Source of the DNA: Deltaproteobacteria bacterium
Lineage (GTDB): Bacteria; Myxococcota_A; UBA796; GCA-2862545
Length of the DNA: 64,000 nucleotides
Direction: 5' to 3'
NCBI GenBank assembly: GCA_006226595.1
Contig: SBGP01000104.1
Span: 1 to 64,000 of the forward strand
Shown: in pieces, positions 39,229 to 64,000 of the stretch
Layout: every line of letters begins with the position of its first letter
Numbering within the stretch: position 1 is the first letter of the stretch
Position numbers and translations under genes: made by a program
The notes under the pieces: model-generated
Databases searched by the model: none
Told to the model about the DNA's origin: nothing
Seen by the model: only the letters and a program-made list of their open reading frames with translations

Positions 39229-41724
39229 CTACTCGGCGTCGCGCTTGCCCTGGGCCAGGAACACCTCGCCAGCGGCGCGAACGCCCTCGAAGAGTGACAC
39301 CCCACCACCAGCGAGCGCCCGGTCCTTCGACTTCACTGCGGTCTGCTCCATCGAGAGCTTCACCGCCTGGATGCCGTTGCGTCCGGTGTTGTGGAAGGCC
39401 GTCACCGCGGCCATCGCGTCGGGCACCCAGTTCACGGTGTCCGGTGTGCCCCGCAGCGAGCCCGGCTCCAGACCCGCCACCGGCATCAGGCGCACCTGGT
39501 TGATCAGCCAGCGCTGCCGCTTCTCGGCCTCGAGCACGGCGCGGTCGTAGGCCTTCTCCTGGGTGGGGGTGCCGCCCTTGCGGAAGGCCGTGGACGCCGA
39601 CGCCGCCCGCGCCGTCGCGAGCACCGCGCCGTTCGCGAAGTGAGCGATGTTGTCCCAGGCAGCCACCCGCTTCTTCGCGCGGGAGCCCGCCGCCAGCGCC
39701 TCGATGCGCGACAGCTCGTCGCTGAGCAGCTTCACGTAGGCCAGGCCGATGCCCACCGCGCTTCCGGCGGTGCCCGCACCCACCACGCCCGCGGCCTCGG
39801 CGGCGGTCGCCGCGATACCGACCCCGGCGCTCGCGAGGTCGAAGGACGCTCCGCGGATCTCTTCGTCGGTGGCGTCGGCGTCGAGCAGCGTCATCACTGC
39901 AGCCGCAGCGCTCAGGAAGTCGCCGGGGGCACCGATCTTGCCGAGCTGCTTGGCCGCGCTCTGGAAGCGGTTTCCGGCGCGGCACGCGCGGATACCGTCG
40001 AAGCGAGCGAGCTCCTTGGCCCCCTCGTCGAGGTCACCGAGGGCACCGAGCTTGGCGTTGCCGTACAGCGTGAGCCCCGCGCCGAGGGTCTCGAGCGCAC
40101 CGGCGGAGGCCTTCGCGCAGGCGTCGGCGAGCTCGTGGATGGCCTTGGCCGTCTCGACGGACGAGGCGAGGCCCTTCTTGCGGGCCTCCTCGGCGATCTC
40201 CCCGGCCTTCGACAGCTTCTTGCCGGCCTTGTAGAACGCGAGGATCTTGCCGAGCCCCTCGATCTTGCCGGCGCCGTCGTGGCCAAGGGCCACCGCGCTC
40301 TCCCCAGCGGTCTTCACGAGCTCCTCGACCTTGCCGGCCGCCTCGACCGCCTGGACCGCGAGGTCGTCCTCGCCGAGGGCGCCGAAGGACTGCTCGGCGA
40401 TCAGGTTGCGCGCGCCGACCTCGATGGTCACGACCGTGCGCTGCTCGTCGAACACGCGCTGGTACTGGCGGTCCATGGCGTCGACCGCGAGCTCGGGCAG
40501 CGCCTTGTCCGCCTTCTCGCGCATCGCGGCCGGGGGGGCCTTGTCGAGCAGTGGCCCGAGCACCGTCTGGCAGCCGATCCACTCGGCTTCCGCCTCGAGC
40601 AGGTGCCGGGTCATCGCCTCGTAGGTCGCGATCGGCGCCGCGCCCTGCTCCGCCGCCTGCACCTCTTCGAGGGCCTGAAAGTAGCGGACCATGTGGTTGT
40701 GGGAGCGCACGAAGCCCGAGATGGCGAGCATGTGCTCGGCGACGCGAACGTTGGCCGGCAGCTGGCGAATGGCGGTGAAACCGTTGGTCGAGATGGCGAA
40801 CTTCTCCTCGCCCTCCGCGCTGGCCGCGACTGAGGTGCCGATGAACGCCTGGTCGATGTGCTGCGCCTCGAGCAGCGTCGCGAGGTAGTCGGCCTTCAGC
40901 GCCTCGTCGTCGAGATCGGCGCCGTCCACCGCGTCGAGCCACGGCGCGACGAACACCGGGAAGTCCGCGGTGCTCATGCCGACCTCGTTCAGCGCGGCGA
41001 TGAGCAGGTCGAGGTCGCGACGCTCGGCGGGCAGGCGCTGCATGACCACACGAAACACGTAGTGAACCGCGTCGGGGTAGCCGGCAATGGCCTTGCCCAG
41101 GCGCTTTCCGGCCTCGGCGGAGGTCTCCTTGCCGTTCTTGCCGTGGTAGAAGGCGCCCCAGAACAGGTCGCCTTCGATGGCCATCTCGACCAACCAGTCC
41201 GCGCCGGCGGCGACCTCGTCGAGCAGGTCGCCCTCGCCGCCGACCAGGGTCTTCGACTCCGGGGTGAGCCGGAAGGCGTCGCGCAGATCGAGCGCGGCCT
41301 GATCGCGCGCCGCGTCCACGGCGCCGAGATCCTTGCGGACGTTGCTGACCAGCGTCTTGTCGGCCTTCTTGTCGCTCTTGCAGGCCTCGGCGTCCTGGAT
41401 CAGCGCCCAGCCGCGGTCGCGCATGCGCTCACCCGCCGAGAGATCGGCCTCGACCAGATCGGTGACGCCACGGGTCTCCGCGGCGAAGGCCGCCGCCAGG
41501 ACCGGCGGGAGGTCACTGTCGACGCGGCTCACCGCCGAGCGGAAGTCGCCAGCGCCGAGCCCCATGCCGAAGCGCTCGTGGAGGTCGACGAGGCCCTCGC
41601 GGGTCGCGTCGTCGAGGGCCGCACACATCTCGCTGTTCGAGGGCAGCGCCTGCTCGGGCGCCTTGCTCTGCGGTGCCGGGGCGCTCTGCGGCGCCTTCTC
41701 GGCAGCCTGCTGTCCCTTGCCCAT
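39229..41724 (-). CDS. Large uncharacterised protein
   Basis: 831 residues, ATG with GGAGG five bases upstream. The first ~30 residues are a low-complexity Ala/Pro/Gln linker (MGKGQQAAEKAPQSAPAPQS). The body is mostly helical, rich in Ala, Glu, Asp and Leu, with heptad-like stretches (~470-560). A Gly/Ala-rich hydrophobic region (~640-690, ASAGVGIAATAAEAAGVVGA) resembles membrane-inserting helices of toxins. There is no signal peptide. I recognise no family. The N-terminal linker, helical body and hydrophobic hairpin would suit a secreted effector, contractile-injection cargo or phage-like structural protein, but no such machinery is visible nearby. Confidence 0.8.
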   Translation of the reverse strand: MGKGQQAAEKAPQSAPAPQSKAPEQALPSNSEMCAALDDATREGLVDLHERFGMGLGAGDFRSAVSRVDSDLPPVLAAAFAAETRGVTDLVEADLSAGERMRDRGWALIQDAEACKSDKKADKTLVSNVRKDLGAVDAARDQAALDLRDAFRLTPESKTLVGGEGDLLDEVAAGADWLVEMAIEGDLFWGAFYHGKNGKETSAEAGKRLGKAIAGYPDAVHYVFRVVMQRLPAERRDLDLLIAALNEVGMSTADFPVFVAPWLDAVDGADLDDEALKADYLATLLEAQHIDQAFIGTSVAASAEGEEKFAISTNGFTAIRQLPANVRVAEHMLAISGFVRSHNHMVRYFQALEEVQAAEQGAAPIATYEAMTRHLLEAEAEWIGCQTVLGPLLDKAPPAAMREKADKALPELAVDAMDRQYQRVFDEQRTVVTIEVGARNLIAEQSFGALGEDDLAVQAVEAAGKVEELVKTAGESAVALGHDGAGKIEGLGKILAFYKAGKKLSKAGEIAEEARKKGLASSVETAKAIHELADACAKASAGALETLGAGLTLYGNAKLGALGDLDEGAKELARFDGIRACRAGNRFQSAAKQLGKIGAPGDFLSAAAAVMTLLDADATDEEIRGASFDLASAGVGIAATAAEAAGVVGAGTAGSAVGIGLAYVKLLSDELSRIEALAAGSRAKKRVAAWDNIAHFANGAVLATARAASASTAFRKGGTPTQEKAYDRAVLEAEKRQRWLINQVRLMPVAGLEPGSLRGTPDTVNWVPDAMAAVTAFHNTGRNGIQAVKLSMEQTAVKSKDRALAGGGVSLFEGVRAAGEVFLAQGKRDAE

Positions 41725-50565: not shown

Positions 50566-50634
50566 CGCTACCTCGCACTCCTGAGGTGTCGGCAGCGGCC
50601 AAGCGGTTCACGAAAAAGTGCATCTCGCTTCGGG

Positions 50635-50814
50635 TCTGACGCCTGAGCTGGGTCTGACCCCGAGGGCGGCTCTGACCCCGGCGGAGGGTCTGACCCTGGC
50701 GGAGGGTCTGACCCCGGCGGAGGGTCTGACCCCGAGGGCGGCTCTGACCCCAGGGGCGGCTCTGACCCCCAAGAGGGGTCTGACCCCTCAGGGGGGTCTG
50801 ACCCCGTTTCAGGC
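50635..50814. repeat. Ten-unit 18-bp tandem repeat
   Basis: Ten units, each starting TCTGAC at exactly 18-base steps (50635, 50653, 50671 and so on to 50797). The commonest unit is GGTCTGACCCCGGCGGAG. Most units contain the imperfect dyad GGGTC-T-GACCC. It fills most of the 319-bp gap between the deacetylase and the histidine-kinase-like gene. Both strands stay open because 18 is a multiple of three (plus GLTPAE, minus SDPPPG), but I see no ribosome-binding site or conserved protein, so I treat it as non-coding. A chi-like or REP-like role, transcription stop or protein array is possible. Confidence 0.9.
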
Positions 50815-50884
50815 CGTTCCCATCGAAGGGTTCGCCACATCGACGCCTCCCGGCGGGATGCGCCGCTCACCTCACCGGACTACG

Positions 50885-51927: not shown

Positions 51928-52572
51928 CTACACGAGTCCGGCGGCCGGACGAAGCAGCGCTCCGGTGAGCGCCTGGACCTCGGCCAGACCGTGGCCCTCC
52001 GCCAGCGCGACCACCGAGAACCCGTCCCCCTCTGCATCGAACACGCCGTACTCGGTGATCACCCGGTCCACCACGCCCGCTGCCGTCAGCGGAAAGCTCA
52101 CCGGATCGACCAGCTTGGGCGCGCCGTTCTTGGCGACATGCCGGGTGAGCACGACCACCCGCCTCGCGCCCGCCGCAAGGTCCATGGCCCCGCCGATGCC
52201 CATCATCCGGCCGCCGGGCACCCGCCAGTTCGCGAGGTCGCCGTTGGCGCCGACCTGCAGGGCTCCGAGGATGGCGAGGTCCACGTGGCCACCGCGAATC
52301 ATCGCGAAGCTCGTCGCCGAGTCGAACAGCGATGCGCCGGGGGCCAGCGTCACGGTCTGCTTGCCCGCGTTGATGAGCTGCGCGTCCTCCTCGCCCTCCA
52401 CGGGAAACGGGCCCATGCCGAGGATGCCGTTCTCGGACTGCAGCCACACCGGCATCTCGGGGTCGAGCGCGTCGGCGACCCGCGTGGGCAGGCCGATGCC
52501 GAGGTTGACCACGGTCCACGGCCGGATCTCGTCCGCCGCCTTGCACACCATCTCGTCGAGGCTCCACGTCAT
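51928..52572 (-). CDS. 3-oxoacid/3-oxoadipate CoA-transferase, beta subunit
   Basis: 214 residues. VNLGIGLPTRVAD, the catalytic Glu in WLQSENGILGMGP (~47-59), NAGKQTVTLAPGASLFDS and GGHVDLAILGALQV are family hallmarks of the B subunits of SCOT/PcaJ/AtoA enzymes. It transfers CoA from succinyl-CoA or an acyl-CoA to a 3-oxoacid. The ATG (52570-52572) overlaps the alpha-subunit stop (ATGA). Position after a maleylacetate reductase domain fits a 3-oxoadipate transferase; acetoacetate is also possible. Confidence 0.92.
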   Translation of the reverse strand: MTWSLDEMVCKAADEIRPWTVVNLGIGLPTRVADALDPEMPVWLQSENGILGMGPFPVEGEEDAQLINAGKQTVTLAPGASLFDSATSFAMIRGGHVDLAILGALQVGANGDLANWRVPGGRMMGIGGAMDLAAGARRVVVLTRHVAKNGAPKLVDPVSFPLTAAGVVDRVITEYGVFDAEGDGFSVVALAEGHGLAEVQALTGALLRPAAGLV

Positions 52573-53264
52573 CGCGGCCTCACGGTGCGGTGCTCGATGA
52601 CGTCGGCGTGCTCGGGCACGTGGACGACCCGCTGCACGAAGGCCCCGGGCAGGTGCACGTCTCCCGGCGCGATGCCCCCGAGGTCGACGAGGTGCTCGAC
52701 CTCGGCAATCGCAACCTCCGCGGCCATCGCCATCGCCGGTCCGAAGTTCGCCGAGGTTCCGATAAAGCGGAGGTTGCCGAAGGGGTCGGCCCGCCACGCC
52801 CGCAGGAACGCGAAGTCGACGCGCAGCGCGTGCTCGAGCAGGTGCACCCGGCCGTCGAACTCGCGCAGCTCCTTGCCTTCGGCCACCACGGTGTGCGCCC
52901 CGGTCGGCGTGTAGAACGCGGCGATACCCGCGCCCGCGGCCCGCATGCGCTCGGTGAACGTGCCCTGCGGGATCACCTCGACCTCGACCGAGCCATCGTC
53001 GATGACCCGCTGAAGGTCGTGGTTGCTGCCGATGTAGGTACAGATGACCTTGGCGACGCGACCCTCCTGCAGCCACTTCGCGAGCCCCAGCCCCATTGCG
53101 CCCGCGTTGTTCGAGACGAGGGTCAGCCCGCGCACCTCGGTGTCGAGCACCGCGTCGATGAGCGCCTCGGGATTGGAGGACAGACCGAAGCCGCTCACCG
53201 CCACCGACATGCCGTCGGCGAGCCCCTCGAGGGCCTGCTCCAGCGAGCGGACCTTGCCGTTCAC
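52569..53264 (-). CDS. 3-oxoacid/3-oxoadipate CoA-transferase, alpha subunit
   Basis: 231 residues. SVAVSGFGLSSNPEALIDAV (CoA-binding loop), LTLVSNNAGAMGLGLAKWL and ICTYIGSNHD, then EVEVIPQGTFTERMRAAGAGI match SCOT/PcaI/AtoD alpha subunits. The GTG start (53262-53264) overlaps the stop of the three-domain fusion gene (GTGA) and the stop overlaps the beta-subunit start, so all three are translationally coupled. Cleavage of 3-oxoadipate or acetoacetate-type intermediates is the likely role. Confidence 0.92.
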   Translation of the reverse strand: MNGKVRSLEQALEGLADGMSVAVSGFGLSSNPEALIDAVLDTEVRGLTLVSNNAGAMGLGLAKWLQEGRVAKVICTYIGSNHDLQRVIDDGSVEVEVIPQGTFTERMRAAGAGIAAFYTPTGAHTVVAEGKELREFDGRVHLLEHALRVDFAFLRAWRADPFGNLRFIGTSANFGPAMAMAAEVAIAEVEHLVDLGGIAPGDVHLPGAFVQRVVHVPEHADVIEHRTVRPR

Positions 53265-56260
53265 AGCGTCGCCTTCGGCCCATAGTCGGCGAAGTCCGCG
53301 AGGTAGTCCTCCTCGACGGTCTCGTGGTGAAGCCACCACTTCATCACCTTGAGCGGGTACGTGCTCTCGAACTGGATCCACAGGGACTCGTCGGGAAGCC
53401 GTGCCGGCTCGGTGGACTCGTCGTACACCTCGCGCTCGTAGGCATGCGCGCTGATGCCGTGGGGCGAGAGGTACGGTGTCCAGCTGAACACGCCCGGCTG
53501 CCAGGTCCGCGACCCCTCCACGTTCTTGATCACGCCGTTGAACTCGACCGCGGAGTTGCGGTGGAAGTACGGCGGGCGGAAGCTGTGCTCGGAGGCATCC
53601 CAGCGCCCTCGGAACACCGCGATGTCCAGGGCGTTGCGCCCGTGCGTGTCCATGGGACAGGTCAGCACCGTGAGGATCGACGGGTCCGGATGGTCCCACG
53701 ACACCGATCCCAGGCTGTTGAAGTGCATGAGGTCGTACTTGTACGGCGCGTAGTTCCCGTGCCAGGCGACGACGTCGAAGGGGTCGTGGCTCGCGGTGTT
53801 CTTCCACAGTACGCCGCCCTGCCGCACGAGCACGGTCCACGGCTCCTCGACGTCCGCGAAGTCCGCGACCGGCGACAGGAAGTGCCGCTCGTCGGCCAGC
53901 CCGTTGGCCCCGACGGGCCCTCGGTTCGGAAGCTGCAGGTGAGCGTCGAAGACCTCGGCGACCCAGCCACGCGCCTCCCCGTCCGGCAAGCTCACCGTGA
54001 ACCGGATCCCGCGGGGAATCACGCAGATCTCGCCGGGCGAGACCTGCAGGCGGCCGAGCTCCGTGCGCACGTGCAGCCGCCCGAGCTCCGGAACCAGGCA
54101 AAGGTCGCCGTCGATGTTGCACATCGCGGTGCGCGTCATGTCCGCGTTCGCTGCGTACACGTGAATCGCCGCCCCGCGCCGCTCGCTCGGGTCCCCTGCC
54201 CCCGCATAGGTGGTGAGACCGTGGAGGAAGTCCGTCGGCTTCTCGGGGATGGGGTGCGGTCGAAAGCGGCGGATCTGCGGGCTCGACACCCCGTGCTCGA
54301 AGGTCCCCACGAAGTGCGACGGCGCATCGGCGTAGCGGGTGAACGGCGTGGAGAGCAGCGCGGGACGCAGGCGATACATCCACGTGCGCTGGTTCAGGCC
54401 GCGCTCCAGCGTGAAGCCGGTGCCGTTGATCTGCTCGGCCACGAGGCCGTAGGCGACACGACGCGGCGAGTTCTGCACCGCCGGCAGTACGTTGGGTCGC
54501 GCCTCGCTGGCCATGGCTCCCATGAACCCGCGCTGGTAGGCGAGTCGGTCGCCGGCCACCGCCTCGGCCACGGCAGTCCGCAGGGCCAGGTCGTCGAAGT
54601 CGTGGATGGCGTGCTGCTCGCCCGGTGCCAGGTGCGCGGACACCTTCGCCCCCGCCTCTCGGAAGCGCGCCGCCGCCGACTCGAACACCGCCCGGTCGAT
54701 CCACGGGTCCCCCGCCGCCGAGCCCATGTGCACGTCCACGCCCCTCGCCGCCGCGAAGCTCGCCCCATCGAGCTCGGTGTGGGCCCCGGTGAACGCGAGG
54801 ACGCGTACCGGTCGGGACTCGGTCACCGACAGCCACGTGAGCACGGTGCACGCGCCCTGCGAGAAGCCGACCGGCACGATGCGCTCGTCCCCGACCACCG
54901 CTCGTGCGTGGCGGTACAGCGCCTCGACGACCGAGAGCGTGCTGTCGAGCTTGGGCTGGTTGTCCTCGACCGGGGCCCGGAAGCCCTTGGGATACCAGGT
55001 GTTGTCGCGGGCCTGCGCGCCGAGGAAACACACGTCCGGCCGCGGTCCGAGCCGTCGCTCGAGATCGGCGAGGAACCGGTCCGCGCTGGCCCCGCGCCCG
55101 TGCACACCAAGCACCACGGCCTTGGCCTCGCGCAGCGGCGCTCCCCGCTCGGTGATCTCCAGCTCCGCGTGCGGGCCCACCGCGCCCTCGGGCATGGCCA
55201 TGCGCCGGGTGCTCAGCGAGGGCCGCCGGTCGTGCAGCGCATCGAGCAGGAAGCTGCGCAGGCTCGTGGCGTCGTAGTCGCGCGGGTTGTCGTAGCGCTT
55301 GGCGAGCACCTGCTCGACGATGCCGTCGAGATGCGACTCGTCGAGGCCAAGCTCGCGAAGCGACGTCTTCAGGCCCAGCTCGCGCTGCAGGTCGTAGAGG
55401 AAGCCCGGCGGGTCGAAGGTGTTCCACGCGTCCTGCGCGGCCCGCAGCGCATCCCGGGCCGCCGGCGCGTTGAACCCGAAGGTGTAGGACAGCAGGATGC
55501 TGTGCGTATCGGCGTGCGAGGTGCCGTAGCTGCCGCCGAGCACGTGGGCGAGCTTGTGGTGCAGCGCCATCGACGCCCCGGCCAGGGCCTCGGACGCGAG
55601 GTACGCCCCGTAGGTCGCCTGCTCGCGGGCGTCGTCCTCGCCTCGGTGGATGCCGCGAATACCCGCCACGAGGGGCTCGAGGCTCTCTTCCGCGCAGCGA
55701 CGCGCGTGCTCGCTCACCTCGACGGCGTACAGCGCCTCGAGGCTGTGGGCCAGCGCGTTGAACAGGCTCTTGTAGGACAGGTCCGGAGGCAGGTTCGCGG
55801 AGAGGTCCGGGTCGTAGACGACCAGCCGCGGACGTACCTTGTCGTCGCGACCCGTGGTCTTGATGCCGTCACGCGTCTCGCCCCAGATGTTGGTGCGCTC
55901 CGAGCCCGCATAGGTCGTGGGTACCGCCGCGATGGGCAGCGACAGCTCGCGAGCGACGACCTTGGCGATGCCGATGGGCGTGCCTCCGCCGTGTGCGCAC
56001 AGCCAGTCGGCGCCGGTCTCCCGGGCCATGGCGATGGCCGCGTCGGCGACCTCGCCGGGCACCTGGGGCACCTCGGTGGTGAACACGCCCACCGCCTTGT
56101 CACCGAGGGCCTCGGCCAGGCGGTCGGCCCCCGCGCGGTGATGGGCCTGGGCGACGAGCAACACGCGCTTCGCCCCGTGCTCGGCGAGCAAGCGGGCGGT
56201 CTCCGCCTCGGCGCCACGGCCGAAGACGACGTGATCGGGTGAGGTCTGCAGCGTGCGCAT
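53261..56260 (-). CDS. Three-domain fusion: maleylacetate reductase, alpha/beta-hydrolase, homogentisate-dioxygenase-like
   Basis: 999 residues in one uninterrupted frame from the ATG at 56258-56260 (CGGAG upstream). Residues ~1-362: iron-alcohol-dehydrogenase-type maleylacetate reductase (HGGGTPIGIAK, TTYAGSERTNIWG, HHKLAHVLGGSYGTSHADTH). Residues ~365-570: carboxylesterase-like hydrolase (VLGVHGRGASADRF, nucleophile GFSQGAC at ~464, His in GEQHAIHDFDD). Residues ~570-999: cupin-fold homogentisate 1,2-dioxygenase homologue (SEARPNVLPAVQNSPRRV, YGLVAEQINGTGFT, iron ligands in FRPPYFHRNSAVEF and SPHGIS). The linkers are short and no strong internal start is visible. It probably channels a ring-cleavage product through hydrolysis and reduction. 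The substrate is not certain because the usual RPG segment differs (CPMDTHGRNALD). Confidence 0.9.
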   Translation of the reverse strand: MRTLQTSPDHVVFGRGAEAETARLLAEHGAKRVLLVAQAHHRAGADRLAEALGDKAVGVFTTEVPQVPGEVADAAIAMARETGADWLCAHGGGTPIGIAKVVARELSLPIAAVPTTYAGSERTNIWGETRDGIKTTGRDDKVRPRLVVYDPDLSANLPPDLSYKSLFNALAHSLEALYAVEVSEHARRCAEESLEPLVAGIRGIHRGEDDAREQATYGAYLASEALAGASMALHHKLAHVLGGSYGTSHADTHSILLSYTFGFNAPAARDALRAAQDAWNTFDPPGFLYDLQRELGLKTSLRELGLDESHLDGIVEQVLAKRYDNPRDYDATSLRSFLLDALHDRRPSLSTRRMAMPEGAVGPHAELEITERGAPLREAKAVVLGVHGRGASADRFLADLERRLGPRPDVCFLGAQARDNTWYPKGFRAPVEDNQPKLDSTLSVVEALYRHARAVVGDERIVPVGFSQGACTVLTWLSVTESRPVRVLAFTGAHTELDGASFAAARGVDVHMGSAAGDPWIDRAVFESAAARFREAGAKVSAHLAPGEQHAIHDFDDLALRTAVAEAVAGDRLAYQRGFMGAMASEARPNVLPAVQNSPRRVAYGLVAEQINGTGFTLERGLNQRTWMYRLRPALLSTPFTRYADAPSHFVGTFEHGVSSPQIRRFRPHPIPEKPTDFLHGLTTYAGAGDPSERRGAAIHVYAANADMTRTAMCNIDGDLCLVPELGRLHVRTELGRLQVSPGEICVIPRGIRFTVSLPDGEARGWVAEVFDAHLQLPNRGPVGANGLADERHFLSPVADFADVEEPWTVLVRQGGVLWKNTASHDPFDVVAWHGNYAPYKYDLMHFNSLGSVSWDHPDPSILTVLTCPMDTHGRNALDIAVFRGRWDASEHSFRPPYFHRNSAVEFNGVIKNVEGSRTWQPGVFSWTPYLSPHGISAHAYEREVYDESTEPARLPDESLWIQFESTYPLKVMKWWLHHETVEEDYLADFADYGPKATL

Positions 56261-56353
56261 GAACACTCCGGGTGCGCGACCGCCGCGCATCGCACGGCGG
56301 AGGGATCCATCTCGGACCCGAAGGCCCCGGGACGCGCCCGGGGCCCGGTTCGA

Positions 56354-57040
56354 TCAGGCCTGCGACTTCACGTGGGCCACGAAGCCACGCACGTCGGCGG
56401 CGGGCTCGCTGTACGCGTTGCCGAGGGCCTCCTCGACGCGAGCGACGTAGGACTGGGCCCACTCCGGCAGCGCCGTGTCGTTCATCGCGAGGAACTCGAG
56501 GGTCGCCGCGAGGCGGATGTCGGCGATGGACGGACCGTCGCCGTCCCCGATGAAGCCGTCGTTGACGAAGTAGTTCTCGAACACCGAGAGCGGCTCGGCC
56601 AGCGCGGCCTCAGACTCCTTGCGGGCGGCCTCCTTCACGTCGTCGCCGAGGTCGCTGTTCGCGACCTCACCCGGGTAGCAGGGGAAGCCGAGGCGGGGGT
56701 ACGTGGAGCGCGACACGAGCGGGTAGAACGTGCCCGTGAGGTAGAAGTTCGCGCTGTCGATGAGCGCGCGACGCCCCGGGTCGGAGGGGTACAGGCCCTC
56801 GAGGCCGTGCTTGTTGGCCAGGTACATCATGATCGCGCAGCTCTCCCACATCGCACCGCGCGGATGGTCGGCGGTCTCGATGGCGGGCGTGAGGTGCGCC
56901 GGGACCTTGCCCATGAACTCGTCCGAGCGCGTCTTGCCCCACGCGTTCTCCTCGGTGTGATCGAGCCCAGACGCACGCAGGAACACGCGCACGGTGAGGT
57001 TGTTGACGCTGGGCGGAAGCATGTGCAGATGCAGGCTCAT
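56354..57040 (-). CDS. Glutathione S-transferase family protein (maleylacetoacetate-isomerase-like role likely)
   Basis: 228 residues. The thioredoxin-fold half includes HMLPPSVNNLTVRVFLRASG (~6-25) and the cis-Pro/glutathione-binding LTPAIETADHPRGAMWESCAIMMYLANKHG (positions ~50-79). The all-helical half has GPSIADIRLAATLEF. The ATG has AAGGAG six bases upstream. Inside an operon with a homogentisate-dioxygenase-like domain, isomerisation of a maleyl to a fumaryl product with glutathione is the natural role, but this is inferred from context. It lies three bases after the stop of the selenoprotein gene. Confidence 0.88.
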   Translation of the reverse strand: MSLHLHMLPPSVNNLTVRVFLRASGLDHTEENAWGKTRSDEFMGKVPAHLTPAIETADHPRGAMWESCAIMMYLANKHGLEGLYPSDPGRRALIDSANFYLTGTFYPLVSRSTYPRLGFPCYPGEVANSDLGDDVKEAARKESEAALAEPLSVFENYFVNDGFIGDGDGPSIADIRLAATLEFLAMNDTALPEWAQSYVARVEEALGNAYSEPAADVRGFVAHVKSQA

Positions 57041-57043
57041 GGG

Positions 57044-57547
57044 TCACTCCTTGGTGGATGGCTGGCGCTTGGAACGCCAGAAGTCGAGAAGTCGGAGGAG
57101 CTCGTCGGGCATCAGCCGCCCGACCGCTCCGGTGCTCGTGACAGCCAACTCGACGCGGCCGTCGCGATCAAAGAGAAAGCTCGCCGCGTGGAGAATGTGG
57201 CGGCGCGGCTCATAGAACAGTCCCAGGGTCTCGGCGGTGGCCTCGAGGGGAAGTCCCACTCCGAGGGGCGTGGTCAGTCCGGTCTCGTCGACCAGCCGCC
57301 GACTGCCCTCCGCGTCGGCGGTGCTCACGACCCACAGGGTCAGCCCCCGCTCGGCGAGGGCTTGCCGCGAGGCCTCGAAGGCCGCCAACTGGCGGCGACA
57401 GTGGCTTCACCATGCCGCCCTCACCACGACGAGCAGGCCCCACTCGGTGGCGAGGTCGTCGGGAAGTCGCACCGCACCGTGCGCCAGCGTGTCGAAGGAC
57501 AGCGCCGGGAGCACATCGCCGGTGTCGAGGCGTCGGCCGGCGTGCAT
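57044..57547 (-). CDS. Thioredoxin-fold (redoxin) protein with in-frame TGA at the active site: probable selenoprotein
   Basis: 168 codons from the ATG at 57545-57547 to the stop at 57044-57046. Codon 47 (57407-57409) is TGA. The sequence around it is LLVVVRAAW-U-SHCRRQLAAF, so TGA replaces the first Cys of a WCxxC redox motif (C50 is intact). Protein-like sequence continues for 120 codons in the same frame with typical redoxin features (LTLWVVSTADAEGS, ILHAASFLFDRDGRV). A GC-rich hairpin starts 11 bases after the TGA (57396-57381). The ATG overlaps the VOC gene stop (TGATG). Selenocysteine is the best reading; a recent nonsense mutation is the alternative. Role: peroxide or disulfide reduction, probably protecting the oxygenase. 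Confidence 0.8.
57381..57396 (-). promoter_or_regulatory. Candidate bacterial SECIS stem-loop
   Basis: GCCGCC-AGTT-GGCGGC on the minus strand: perfect 6-bp stem with a four-base loop. The stem begins 11 bases and the loop 17 bases after the in-frame TGA (57407-57409). In bacterial SECIS elements the loop lies within about 16-37 bases of the UGA and carries a G in the first two loop positions, which is met here. A second hairpin (GGCC-ttcga-GGCC) follows immediately. Confidence 0.6.
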
Positions 57548-58041
57548 CAGGCGCTCGCCTTCTTCGCCTGCCACTGCGCGAGCACGCCGCGGGCGTCGTT
57601 CTTGGTGTTGTCCGTCGCCTCGTCGTGGTTCGGCATCTTCGCGGTGAGCTCGATGACATACCCGTTGGGGTCGCGGAAGTAGATCGAGTGGATGAAGTTG
57701 TGGTCGGCCACGCCGCGAACCTCGCGGCCCTCGGCCTCGCCCTTCGCCTTCATCGCCAGCATGTGCTCGTACGAGACCTCGAGGGCGATGTGCAGGTCGT
57801 AGTCGTGGAAGTCCACGAAGTCGTGAGGCATCGACGGGACCTCGAAAAACGCGAGGTAGCTGCCGTTGTCCATCTCGTAGAAGGTGTGCAGCGCCTCGAC
57901 CGAGCGGCCCGTCTTCGACTCGTTGATCCACAGGGTCGCGGCGAGCGGCAGCTCGAGGAAGTCCTCGTAGAAGACGCGCGTCTCCTCGGAGTCACGACAG
58001 CGGTAGGCGTTGTGGTGAAGGCCGACGATTCCGGAAGTCAT
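57547..58041 (-). CDS. VOC (vicinal oxygen chelate) family protein
   Basis: 164 residues from the ATG at 58039-58041. It contains the first metal-binding strand GLHHNAYRCRDSEETRVFYEDF (~6-27), the second in DYDLHIALEVSY, and HSIYFRDPNGYVIELTAKM (~116-134), which carries the last Glu ligand. This is a single-domain glyoxalase/extradiol-dioxygenase-like fold. It could be an isomerase, epimerase or ring-cleavage accessory. The ATG overlaps the stop of the upstream citryl-CoA-lyase-like gene (ATGA), and the stop overlaps the selenoprotein start. Confidence 0.88.
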   Translation of the reverse strand: MTSGIVGLHHNAYRCRDSEETRVFYEDFLELPLAATLWINESKTGRSVEALHTFYEMDNGSYLAFFEVPSMPHDFVDFHDYDLHIALEVSYEHMLAMKAKGEAEGREVRGVADHNFIHSIYFRDPNGYVIELTAKMPNHDEATDNTKNDARGVLAQWQAKKASA

Positions 58042-58799
58042 TCGCTCTCCTCGGGGACGTAGGGCACCGCCTGCTCGGCGGCGTGCCACAGCTCGCGCAT
58101 GGCGGGCCGCTGCTGCTCCTCACGGATGTGACCGACGAGACCCGCACATCGGCTGATCAGCGCGATCCCGCGCGCAATCTCGATGGGCACGTCCGCGTCG
58201 GCGAGCAGGGCGGCGATGGCGGCGGTGGCATTGGGTGGAAGGGGTCGATCGATGGCCATGCGAATCGCGCCATCGAGCACGTCCAGCGCTTCGCAGTGAG
58301 CGCCGTAGAGGTCGTGGGCCCGCGCCACGTCGAGCAGGGCCTCGGTGCGGGGGTCCACGGGCGTGTGCTGCGGGTGTCCGAAGCCGGGCAGACGCTGCTT
58401 GTGGGCCCGGGCATGGGCGACGATGTCGGCGGCCTCGGCAGCCGCGTCTTCGGCGGCGACGATGCGGGCGAGCAGCTGCCCGCAGCCCTCCATCGTGCCG
58501 ACGAACAAGCTTCCCACCGACAGCAGGCCCGCAGCGACCGCGCCCTGCATGGCCTCGGGAGCCGAGGTGTACGTGAGCCGGGTGCTGATCGCCGTCGGCG
58601 TGAGCCCGTGCTCCATCAGCGTGACCAGGCACGCATCGAGCACCGCCCGCTGACCGGCCGTCGCCTCGCGCCCGGTGAGGTGGAAGTACACCATCTCGGT
58701 GAAGGTCCAGCTTCCGATAATCTCACCCGGCAGACTGCGTCCGCGGATGCGCACGTCCGTGGCCGTAGACTCGCAAAGCGACGTCGTGACCTTGCTCAT
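58038..58799 (-). CDS. Citrate-synthase-family lyase (citryl-CoA-lyase-like)
   Basis: 253 residues. IRGRSLPGEIIGSWTFTEMVYFHLTGRE and LPGFGHPQHTPVDPRTEAL match the short citrate-synthase/citryl-CoA-lyase fold: the GFGHP His is a catalytic residue of the family. It is much shorter than citrate synthase (about 430) because it lacks the small domain, as citryl-CoA lyases do. It probably cleaves a 3-hydroxy-3-carboxyacyl-CoA or similar CoA ester. The ATG (58797-58799) overlaps the ligase stop (ATGA). Confidence 0.82.
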   Translation of the reverse strand: MSKVTTSLCESTATDVRIRGRSLPGEIIGSWTFTEMVYFHLTGREATAGQRAVLDACLVTLMEHGLTPTAISTRLTYTSAPEAMQGAVAAGLLSVGSLFVGTMEGCGQLLARIVAAEDAAAEAADIVAHARAHKQRLPGFGHPQHTPVDPRTEALLDVARAHDLYGAHCEALDVLDGAIRMAIDRPLPPNATAAIAALLADADVPIEIARGIALISRCAGLVGHIREEQQRPAMRELWHAAEQAVPYVPEESE

Positions 58800-60286
58800 G
58801 CGTCCTCCAGCAGTCGCTCGAGCTCGTGGCGCCGCACCTTGCCCGAGGCGCTGCGAGGAAAGTCTTCGAAGCCGATGAAGCGCACCGCCTTCGGCTTCTT
58901 GTACGAGGCGAGCTGGGCCTTGCACGCGGCGATGAGCCCCTCTTCGGTGACGCTGTCGTCACGTCGCGCCACGAAGGCGACCGGCACCTCGCCCCAGGTC
59001 GGGTCAGGTCGCCGGACCACCGCTGCCTCGGCCACGCGGGGGTCGGCGAGCAGCACGCGCTCGATCTCGGCCGGGTAGATGTTCTCGCCACCGGACTTGA
59101 TCAGGTACTTGCGGCGGTCGACGAAGTCGAGGGTGCCGTCGGGGTTGCGCACGAACACGTCACCCATCGCGAAGTAGCCGTCGACGAAGCCGGTCTCGCC
59201 CGCGCCCCAGTAGCCGGAGAACAGCGTCGGGCCGCGCATGTACAGCTCGCCGGGCAGCCCGTCGGCGACCTCGACGCCATCCTCGTCCACGAGCCGGATC
59301 TCGCAGTACGGGCTCTGCTCCTTGGACAGCGAGCTCGGCGCCACACCCACCGGGATCAGGCTCGACGAGCAGGGCGGACAACCGGTCTCGGTGGCCCCAA
59401 AGGTGTTCGCGTAGGGCGCGTCGAGCAGAGTGGTAATGCGGGCGATGTCCGCGGGGGGCACGAGGTCGGCCATGACCCCACAGACCTTGATGCCCGCGGG
59501 CTTCACGCCGCGCTCCTCGAGCAGGTCCGCGAAGCGCCCGACCATGCCCGGCATGAGCAGCAACCAGCCGATGGGATGCGCGGCGACGAGCCCGGCGAGC
59601 GCCTCGGCATCGAAGCCGTCGACCACGAACACCGCTCCCCCGCTCATCAGCGTTCCCAGCGAATACTCGGCACCACCCATATGGTACAGCGGGCTCCACG
59701 CGACGTAGGCATCCTCGGCGGCGATGCCGAACTCGGCGCGGAGCACGAGGTTGCGCACGATCTCGGCGCGATGGCTGATCACCGCACCCTTCGGCAGCCC
59801 CGTGGTCCCCGAGGTGTAGAGGATGATCAGCGGGGACTCGGGGTCGACGTCCACCGGGTGCTCCACGGGCGTCGCCTCGGCCAGGCGCGCCTCGACCTGC
59901 TCGAACACGAGCACCGGCTCACCGCGGTCTGCCACGCGCTCGGCCTGGGCGGGACTCGCGACGATGAGCGCGGGCTCGACGAGGTCGAGGCAGTGTGCGA
60001 GCTCGCTCGGCGCCAGGCGCCAGTTCTGGCACGCGACCACGGCCCCCAGCCACGCCGCGGCGAAGAAGAGCTCGAGATACTCGACGCGGTTGCGGGAGAG
60101 CACCGCGATGCGGTCCCCCTCCCCCACGCCGTGAGCGCGAAACAGGCCCGCCCAGCGCTGCACGCGCTCGAGCATCTCGCCGTAGGTCCGCTCTCCGCCC
60201 ACACCCGCGAGCGCCAGACGCTGGGGGTACACGCGCGCCCGCCCTCGGAACAGGCTGGCGACAGTGCTGGGGACGGCGGCAGGCAC
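58796..60286 (-). CDS. AMP-dependent acyl-CoA ligase
   Basis: 496 residues. Adenylate-forming hallmarks: ILYTSGTTGLPKGAVISHRA (~155-174), the A5-type segment NTFGATETGC, YFAMGDVFVRNPDGTLDFVDRRKYLIKSGG (positions ~386-415; hinge Asp in the A8 loop) and the late Lys in PRSASGKVRRHEL. The enzyme loads an unknown carboxylic acid, probably aromatic, onto CoA. It is the first gene of the operon read right to left. The start is GTG at 60284-60286, with GGAGG 11 bases upstream. Confidence 0.92.
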   Translation of the reverse strand: MPAAVPSTVASLFRGRARVYPQRLALAGVGGERTYGEMLERVQRWAGLFRAHGVGEGDRIAVLSRNRVEYLELFFAAAWLGAVVACQNWRLAPSELAHCLDLVEPALIVASPAQAERVADRGEPVLVFEQVEARLAEATPVEHPVDVDPESPLIILYTSGTTGLPKGAVISHRAEIVRNLVLRAEFGIAAEDAYVAWSPLYHMGGAEYSLGTLMSGGAVFVVDGFDAEALAGLVAAHPIGWLLLMPGMVGRFADLLEERGVKPAGIKVCGVMADLVPPADIARITTLLDAPYANTFGATETGCPPCSSSLIPVGVAPSSLSKEQSPYCEIRLVDEDGVEVADGLPGELYMRGPTLFSGYWGAGETGFVDGYFAMGDVFVRNPDGTLDFVDRRKYLIKSGGENIYPAEIERVLLADPRVAEAAVVRRPDPTWGEVPVAFVARRDDSVTEEGLIAACKAQLASYKKPKAVRFIGFEDFPRSASGKVRRHELERLLEDA

Positions 60287-62101: not shown

Positions 62102-64000
62102 TCACAGGGTGTGACCGAGCACCATCCACCGCACGCGCTCGACACCGGTATCGGGACGCATCGCGGTCACCGCGACCATCAGCCGTCCGTCGATGACCAC
62201 GAGGTCGGCGCCGGTGGGCTCGAACAGGCCGAGGTCGAGCGTGGTGCGCTCGAACCACGCATCCCGGCCCCAGGTGAGCACGAGGTCGTCGAGCCCGTCG
62301 CCGTCCTGGTCCTCGGTGACGAGGGCCGCGACGAGCGTGCCGTTGTGGTCGACGGTGTGGGCATCGCGCACCGCCGTCGACAGTGCCAGCGTCTCGAGCA
62401 CACCGGGGCCCTCGACCCAGGTCGTGCCGGTGGCCGCGTTGTACACCGTAAGCAGCTCGCCATCGCGGTTGACGAGGTCGAAGGACTGACCTGCGTACGC
62501 GGTGTCGACGACGCCCTCGGTCATGCCGGTGGAGGTCACGTCCCACTGCTCGAGCGGGCCATCCGCGGGCTGGACGTGGACTACGGCCTGGTACGCGTCC
62601 TCACCCGGGAGGGATGCAGTGCACGCGACCCCAGGCAACAGCTCGTCGTCGTGAGCGTACGCGCGGCTGTAGTACCCCGCCGACCTGGTCATCGCGGCGA
62701 CGGAGCTGCCACCCTCACTGCAGCCGATCCCGAACACGGATCCATCCGGGGCGACGACGACCTCGTGATCGCGGACGGGGGCTCCGGTCGAGATCGCGCG
62801 CAGCGCAGGCGACCCGTTGCTGTACACCCGCGAGACGTCGTTCCAAACGAGCGTGTCGAGGCGGAAGTAGGTGAAGTCGGAGCCGTTCGCCGCGGGGCGC
62901 TGGAGACTGGTCGCAAGTCCCAGGATGCCTTCGTGATCGGGATGACTGGCGAGGTCGATGCCGTAGCCCCGTGGATCCGCCGCGTTCACACCCAGGACGA
63001 ACTGCGTGACGGTCGGCTGCGACAGCCTGCCCAGGGCCCCTTCGAACGTGGCCAGCCCCACGGGGGTGAAGACCTCCAGCGGCGGGACCACCGGCTGAAC
63101 CGAACGGTCCGCTCCCCAGAGCAGCACGGTGCGGTTGCCGTCGCGAACGAGGTTCGGACGCCGCAGTCCCTCCACCTCCATGTCGAAGGTCACGAAGGCG
63201 CCGGCATCCGGGTTGCCGTTGCAGTCCTGGTCGACGTCGTCGCCGAGCCACTCGAGGGTGTCCGGGTGGACATCGGGGAGGTCGTCGGCACAGTCCGTGA
63301 CGGGCAGCGAGCCGTCATAGACATCGGCGTAGAGCGCACTCGCATAGCCGTCGCCATCCATGTCGTAGTCGTCGGCACCGTCGCAGTCGGTGTCCTCGCC
63401 GTCGTACCAGGTGTCGAAGGCCCCGGGATGCACGCTCGCGGCGCCGTCGTCACAGTCCCCCCACCGAGCCGTCAAGCCGCACTGATACGCCGCCTCGTAG
63501 CGCTGGAACGCCGCCTCCGTGGCCTCGGTACGGAGCATGTAGCCGTCCCCGTCCACGTCGAACTCGTCGGCGCAGTCACAGTCCATGTCGACGCCGTCGT
63601 AGGGCTCGTCGACGACGTCCGCGCCCGGGAACACCGCGGCATCGAGGTCGTTGCAGTCCCCGGAGGGCAGCGAGCCGGCGTACGGCGGGTCGTGAGGCAG
63701 GCCCGTGTTCGGGTTGAAGGTCGCGACGAACCCGTCGCCATCGACGTCGTAGTCGTCGTTTGCGCCACAGTCCGTATCGAGCCCATCGTAGGGCACCTCC
63801 AGCGGCGACCCCGGGTACACGTCAGGGTCGGTGTCGTCGCAGTCGACGAGGTCGGTCGGCAAGCCCGCGGGCCACGTCCCAGGGTAGTCGCCGAGCGCAA
63901 CGCCCGCGAAGCCGTCGCCGTCCACGTCGACCAGGTCTTCACCATCTCCGTCCTGGTCGACCCCGTCGTACGGAATCTCCTCCGAGAGCTCCGGTTCGGG
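62102..64000 (-). CDS. MopE-type Asp-rich surface protein (5' end outside the window)
   Basis: 633 codons visible; the frame runs open to the window edge (EEIPYDGVDQDGDGEDLVDVDGDGF at the start of the visible part). The first ~220 residues contain five to six MopE-like units (D.DGDG...DCDD..P.V.PG....YDG.DTDCDG..DYD), which resemble the copper/metal-binding MopE repeat. The remaining ~410 residues are beta-rich (propeller-like) with no recognised family. Signal peptide and N-terminus cannot be seen. Confidence 0.87.
   Translation of the reverse strand, partial: PEPELSEEIPYDGVDQDGDGEDLVDVDGDGFAGVALGDYPGTWPAGLPTDLVDCDDTDPDVYPGSPLEVPYDGLDTDCGANDDYDVDGDGFVATFNPNTGLPHDPPYAGSLPSGDCNDLDAAVFPGADVVDEPYDGVDMDCDCADEFDVDGDGYMLRTEATEAAFQRYEAAYQCGLTARWGDCDDGAASVHPGAFDTWYDGEDTDCDGADDYDMDGDGYASALYADVYDGSLPVTDCADDLPDVHPDTLEWLGDDVDQDCNGNPDAGAFVTFDMEVEGLRRPNLVRDGNRTVLLWGADRSVQPVVPPLEVFTPVGLATFEGALGRLSQPTVTQFVLGVNAADPRGYGIDLASHPDHEGILGLATSLQRPAANGSDFTYFRLDTLVWNDVSRVYSNGSPALRAISTGAPVRDHEVVVAPDGSVFGIGCSEGGSSVAAMTRSAGYYSRAYAHDDELLPGVACTASLPGEDAYQAVVHVQPADGPLEQWDVTSTGMTEGVVDTAYAGQSFDLVNRDGELLTVYNAATGTTWVEGPGVLETLALSTAVRDAHTVDHNGTLVAALVTEDQDGDGLDDLVLTWGRDAWFERTTLDLGLFEPTGADLVVIDGRLMVAVTAMRPDTGVERVRWMVLGHTL

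Follow-up and report, generated by a model that had tools for sequence, protein, structure and literature searches.

Selenoproteins of the peroxiredoxin-like (Prx-like) kind were described between 2005 and 2008 (PMC1088965, PMC1794560, PMC2398784). The Sargasso Sea survey reported 22 sequences with a UXXC motif instead of TXXU (PMC1088965), UxxC Prx-like selenoproteins were also reported among bacterial genomes (PMC1794560), and the GOS survey gave 225 sequences for Prx-like 1 (PMC2398784). A 2026 review lists the Prx-like thiol:disulfide oxidoreductase in its Table 1 as a high-confidence prediction, its activity also being predicted (PMC13188914). The family's published representative is WP_010940744.1. 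Members of this family have a PF00578 domain, a single selenocysteine (Sec) in a UxxC motif and a SECIS element just past the UGA, as does, by prediction, the redoxin gene studied here. The Redoxin family selenoprotein (PF08534; PMC13188914) has UxxC in common with our redoxin, which is also above the PF08534 cut-off but scores higher as PF00578.

By its PF00578 match and UxxC motif, the predicted redoxin belongs to the Prx-like thiol:disulfide oxidoreductase family, as a divergent newcomer of a kind already known. It differs from the described members in having AAW-U-SHC where the family has YRGHW-U-P[FY]C, in a hairpin whose loop has four bases and whose stem is displaced by one base on its 3' side, in an identity of at most about 40%, and in its location in an aromatic-catabolism operon. 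The first-pass annotation called it a probable new selenoprotein; our analysis supports the selenoprotein part, but with the UxxC Prx-like family of selenoproteins already established, "new" applies to the gene itself and not to the kind. The family's function is so far a prediction; the gene would add a deep branch to it, and the surrounding operon is a rare hint at a pathway that may involve such a protein.

The redoxin gene and its in-frame TGA

The redoxin gene lies in the window, by which we mean the whole 64,000-nucleotide stretch of DNA analysed, with the following features:

57044..57547, (-) strand: predicted Sec-containing Prx-like (AhpC/TSA) redoxin gene, 167 aa, U47, UxxC motif U47-S-H-C50 (from PF00578, relatives and AlphaFold)
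57407..57409, (-) strand: in-frame TGA, codon 47, probably read as selenocysteine (position kept as TGA in the family)
57381..57396, (-) strand: putative bacterial SECIS hairpin GCCGCC-AGUU-GGCGGC, +11 to +26 past the UGA (relatives have a covarying stem at this place and a loop of the AGUU type)

Re-reading the sequence bore out the description given in the first pass of a frame coupled to the upstream gene and broken only at codon 47. The start codon, an ATG at 57547, shares bases with the stop of the VOC gene upstream (TGATG), and the frame runs through 167 codons to a final TGA at 57046-57044, with TGA47 as its sole disruption. The TGA is located at the active-site position, in the context AAW-U-SHC-RRQL, and is followed by 120 in-frame, redoxin-like codons; the GC-rich stem with its four-base loop was likewise found 11-26 bases past it, at 57396-57381. 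GC3 is coding-like on both sides of TGA47 (0.87 and 0.84). In DNA of 69% GC, such a long open frame is weak evidence when taken alone. A standard gene caller would stop the gene at codon 46 or begin it past the TGA, and the open-reading-frame listing at this locus contains only a TTG-started fragment of 114 residues.

The translated frame matches AhpC-TSA (PF00578) with 50.5 bits (cut-off 26) over residues 10-133, and Redoxin (PF08534) with 31.9 bits (cut-off 26.6), both matches extending across the TGA. The AlphaFold model is confident over the full length (pLDDT 91.5, pTM 0.87) and adopts a peroxiredoxin fold, in which residue 47 begins the active-site helix. Assignment to the SelL-related redox proteins (NF040769) was rejected at 31.3 bits against a curated cut-off of 120, the similarity being partial and confined to residues 14-96.

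Relatives of the redoxin

At an E-value of 1e-8, a search of 57 genomes from the genus, family and order of the host gave no relative of the redoxin, and a class-wide search returned weak matches only. Across the phylum, the better matches (27-39% identity) have as a rule one in-frame TGA, which is present in 10 of the best 11 Myxococcota matches, the query among them. Because a scan of genome contigs with the single redoxin protein gave no match, relatives were gathered with an alignment bearing X at the Sec codon, which avoids a bias towards Cys. The resulting set comprises 80 named loci from public genomes (Myxococcota, Nitrospinota, Pseudomonadota, Chloroflexota and others). The codon equivalent to codon 47 is TGA in 79 of the 80 (seven of these being assigned from translations showing HW-U, outside the search motif) and Cys in one (L079), a count in which some pull towards the Sec clade remains, since the alignment rows were mostly Sec forms even though the search patterns left out the Sec codon. 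Homology, together with a TGA at the same codon in nearly every relative, puts the predicted frame beyond chance.

The nearest relative by motif and identity, from a Chloroflexota genome (L114), also has U-SHC and is 38-40% identical; about 40% was the best identity to any relative found. In the tree, the redoxin forms a lone long branch (0.92) with 77 other members of a Sec-rich clade (support 99/96), within which it has no firm placement. The first-pass annotation took the Sec to have replaced a catalytic Cys. The Sec site itself stands, but this clade does not display such a replacement, Sec being usual there and Cys exceptional. None of the homologues has an ordinary stop or a decayed sequence at this place, which the same annotation had named as grounds for refuting it; in the close relatives searched, the gene is absent.

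The putative SECIS hairpin

Considered from its own sequence alone, the redoxin hairpin is only mildly unusual. Its fold z-score was -1.75 for a segment of 41 nt and -0.09 for one of 50 nt, and an equal stem arose in 28% of synonymous recodings under a loose rule and in 11% at the family position. A stem at the family position together with an AGTT loop was obtained in 0.8% of recodings, the loop requiring the rare Leu codon TTG (13 of the 371 Leu codons in the window's genes). The hairpin was rejected as stand-alone evidence after these recoding tests.

Across the family, the evidence for a SECIS element is strong, as far as comparison of sequences can tell. Among 50 relatives with Gln-Leu at the hairpin, 72% have at least 5 pairs, compared with 7% of synonymous recodings. 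In 30 aligned sequences, the cells of the 6-bp stem are paired in 92.8% of cases versus 80.9% in shuffles, with 20 double-change cells versus 5.5; variants of the stem include GCCGGC/GCCGGC, GGCGGC/GCCGCC and GTCGTC/GACGAC. The shuffle control does not take out relatedness; a control that does preserve it, in which the partner was displaced by 1 to 3 columns, brought the stem score down from 0.346 to at most 0.141. The redoxin hairpin has the same loop start as the family and a 3' arm one base nearer, and lies just past the UGA with a G in its apical loop, as expected of bacterial SECIS elements. The proposal of a bacterial SECIS is upheld by family conservation and covariation, and weakly by the hairpin's own z-scores and recodings.

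A second Prx-like gene with a predicted Sec is present in the same genome (contig C112, about 41438-41596 (-); L138). It has the motif FRGHW-U-PYC and a 6-bp stem, GCGCCG-AGTTG-CGGCGC, at a similar distance from the UGA.

Selenocysteine machinery and probable decoding of the TGA

The source genome (7.23 Mb, 97% complete) is a draft in 117 contigs. The first-pass annotation had proposed a search for selA, selB, selC (tRNA-Sec) and selD, and all four were found over their cut-offs: tRNA-Sec at 63 bits, with the anticodon TCA according to ARAGORN, and, above curated cut-offs, selA at 489 bits, selB at 297 bits in a 635-codon frame, and selD at 257 bits. The C-terminal part of SelB retains winged-helix domains 2 and 3. 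Most relatives of the genus, family and order have kept selA. The completeness of this machinery removes the main objection to reading the gene as a selenoprotein.

TGA47 might instead be a true stop, leaving either a recent nonsense pseudogene or a peptide of 46 residues. Such a reading would agree with the divergent surroundings of the active site, where the redoxin has AAW-U-SHC in place of YRGHW-U-P[FY]C, even though L114 also has U-SHC, and with the want, at a best identity of about 40%, of a close homologue that would show purifying selection on this copy. The nonsense mutation would, however, have to have landed by chance on the very codon at which 79 of 80 relatives have TGA, in front of a SECIS stem and loop at the family position, in a genome with all the Sec genes, and in a gene with no other disruption in 167 codons and a confidently predicted full-length fold; we consider this highly improbable. 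Still less probable is an assembly or sequencing error for a real TGC or TGG. The draft state of the genome allows for errors, but this one would have had to hit the exact codon for Sec in a family dominated by Sec, with a suitable hairpin next to it, and elsewhere the genome has another Sec gene of this kind.

The redoxin gene is very probably functional and encodes, with the same probability, a selenoprotein of the Prx-like UxxC thiol:disulfide oxidoreductase family. Conservation, covariation and the complete machinery suggest that the hairpin, 11-26 nt past UGA47, would direct SelB and tRNA-Sec to insert Sec at this codon.

The selD gene (L018, 268-2505 (+) on genome contig C1) encodes a fusion with a pyridine-nucleotide-disulfide oxidoreductase domain at the N-terminal end, and its SelD motif, VCGGCAAK, contains Cys and no Sec.

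Predicted fold and chemistry

The solved folds closest to the redoxin model are peroxiredoxins, with a Foldseek E-value of 8e-12 to LsfA and a VIA Z of 20.2 to Bcp4. These 1-Cys Prx and Bcp-type proteins (LsfA, 7kuu; Bcp4, 3hjp) have the fold in common with the redoxin, at an identity of 14-21%, but LsfA has TxxC where the redoxin has UxxC. Aligned pairwise with LsfA, the redoxin has residue 47 opposite the Thr of TxxC and Cys50 opposite its Cys, which we take to be the peroxidatic Cys. The redoxin therefore carries its Sec in UxxC (U47-S-H-C50) and not in the Prx TxxU/TxxC arrangement.

The product would be a monodomain peroxiredoxin-fold protein, with Sec47 at the position of the canonical Prx Thr and Cys50 at that of the peroxidatic Cys. 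We infer that Sec47 and Cys50 may act as the redox pair of a thiol:disulfide oxidoreductase or a peroxidase. Fold and motif make it likely that the selenolate attacks a disulfide or hydroperoxide, and a Sec47-Cys50 selenenylsulfide would then form and be reduced by thioredoxin or glutathione. It is possible, though not the reading we would favour, that the selenoprotein is a true Prx-type peroxidase and not a thiol:disulfide oxidoreductase, Cys50 being peroxidatic and Sec47 resolving. The nearest solved folds and the alignment of Cys50 with the peroxidatic Cys argue for such a role, whereas UxxC is thioredoxin-like, Sec stands where Prx proteins conserve the Thr of TxxC, and the published name of the family, itself a prediction, is thiol:disulfide oxidoreductase. 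This is a sub-question within the selenocysteine explanation and not an alternative to Sec.

Operon context

The genes around the redoxin are as follows:

51928..53264, (-) strand: CoA-transferase subunits A and B
53261..56290, (-) strand: three-domain fusion of Fe-ADH, Abhydrolase_2 and HgmA
56354..57040, (-) strand: GST-like gene, downstream, beginning 3 nt past the redoxin stop
57547..58041, (-) strand: VOC/glyoxalase-family gene, upstream, its TGA stop overlapping the redoxin ATG
58041..60286, (-) strand: citryl-CoA-lyase-like and AMP-binding acyl-CoA ligase genes

The content of the operon points to ring cleavage and CoA-linked catabolism, and the redoxin is apparently set in a homogentisate-dioxygenase/CoA-transferase operon. 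The first pass had described a redoxin in an aromatic-catabolism operon as unusual, and the operon genes agree with this. By local tblastn, the VOC/redoxin/GST gene order was shared by none of the relatives; isolated ligase or VOC matches near relatives are not evidence of an adjacent operon. The GST-like gene recurs in one relative of the family (G015), where the contig ends inside that gene. As no relative found shares the neighbourhood, only gene overlap and position connect the redoxin with the pathway. We found no paper joining selenocysteine, SECIS and homogentisate dioxygenase.

A guess from the operon partners (VOC, GST-like and the HgmA fusion) is that the redoxin may provide redox or thiol chemistry for aromatic-ring catabolism. 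That a Prx-like selenoprotein lineage was recruited to this operon and dedicated to the redox or thiol chemistry of the pathway, for example reactions of glutathione or hydroperoxides connected with the GST-like and HgmA-type enzymes, is a speculative idea that we rate as rather unlikely. If recruitment did occur, selenium would be linked to the degradation of aromatic rings in Myxococcota.

The fusion at 53261-56290 (-) is unusual in its own right, a single ORF of 1009 residues combining an iron-containing alcohol dehydrogenase, a hydrolase and a full homogentisate 1,2-dioxygenase-like domain. Elsewhere in the window, 62102-63925 (-) encodes a 607-residue protein with repeated DxDGDG/MopE-type metal-binding motifs (PF11617), and a putative short ORF at 50568-50870 (-), just upstream of a histone-deacetylase-like ORF, contains many tandem repeats of the S-D/E-P-P-x-G type.
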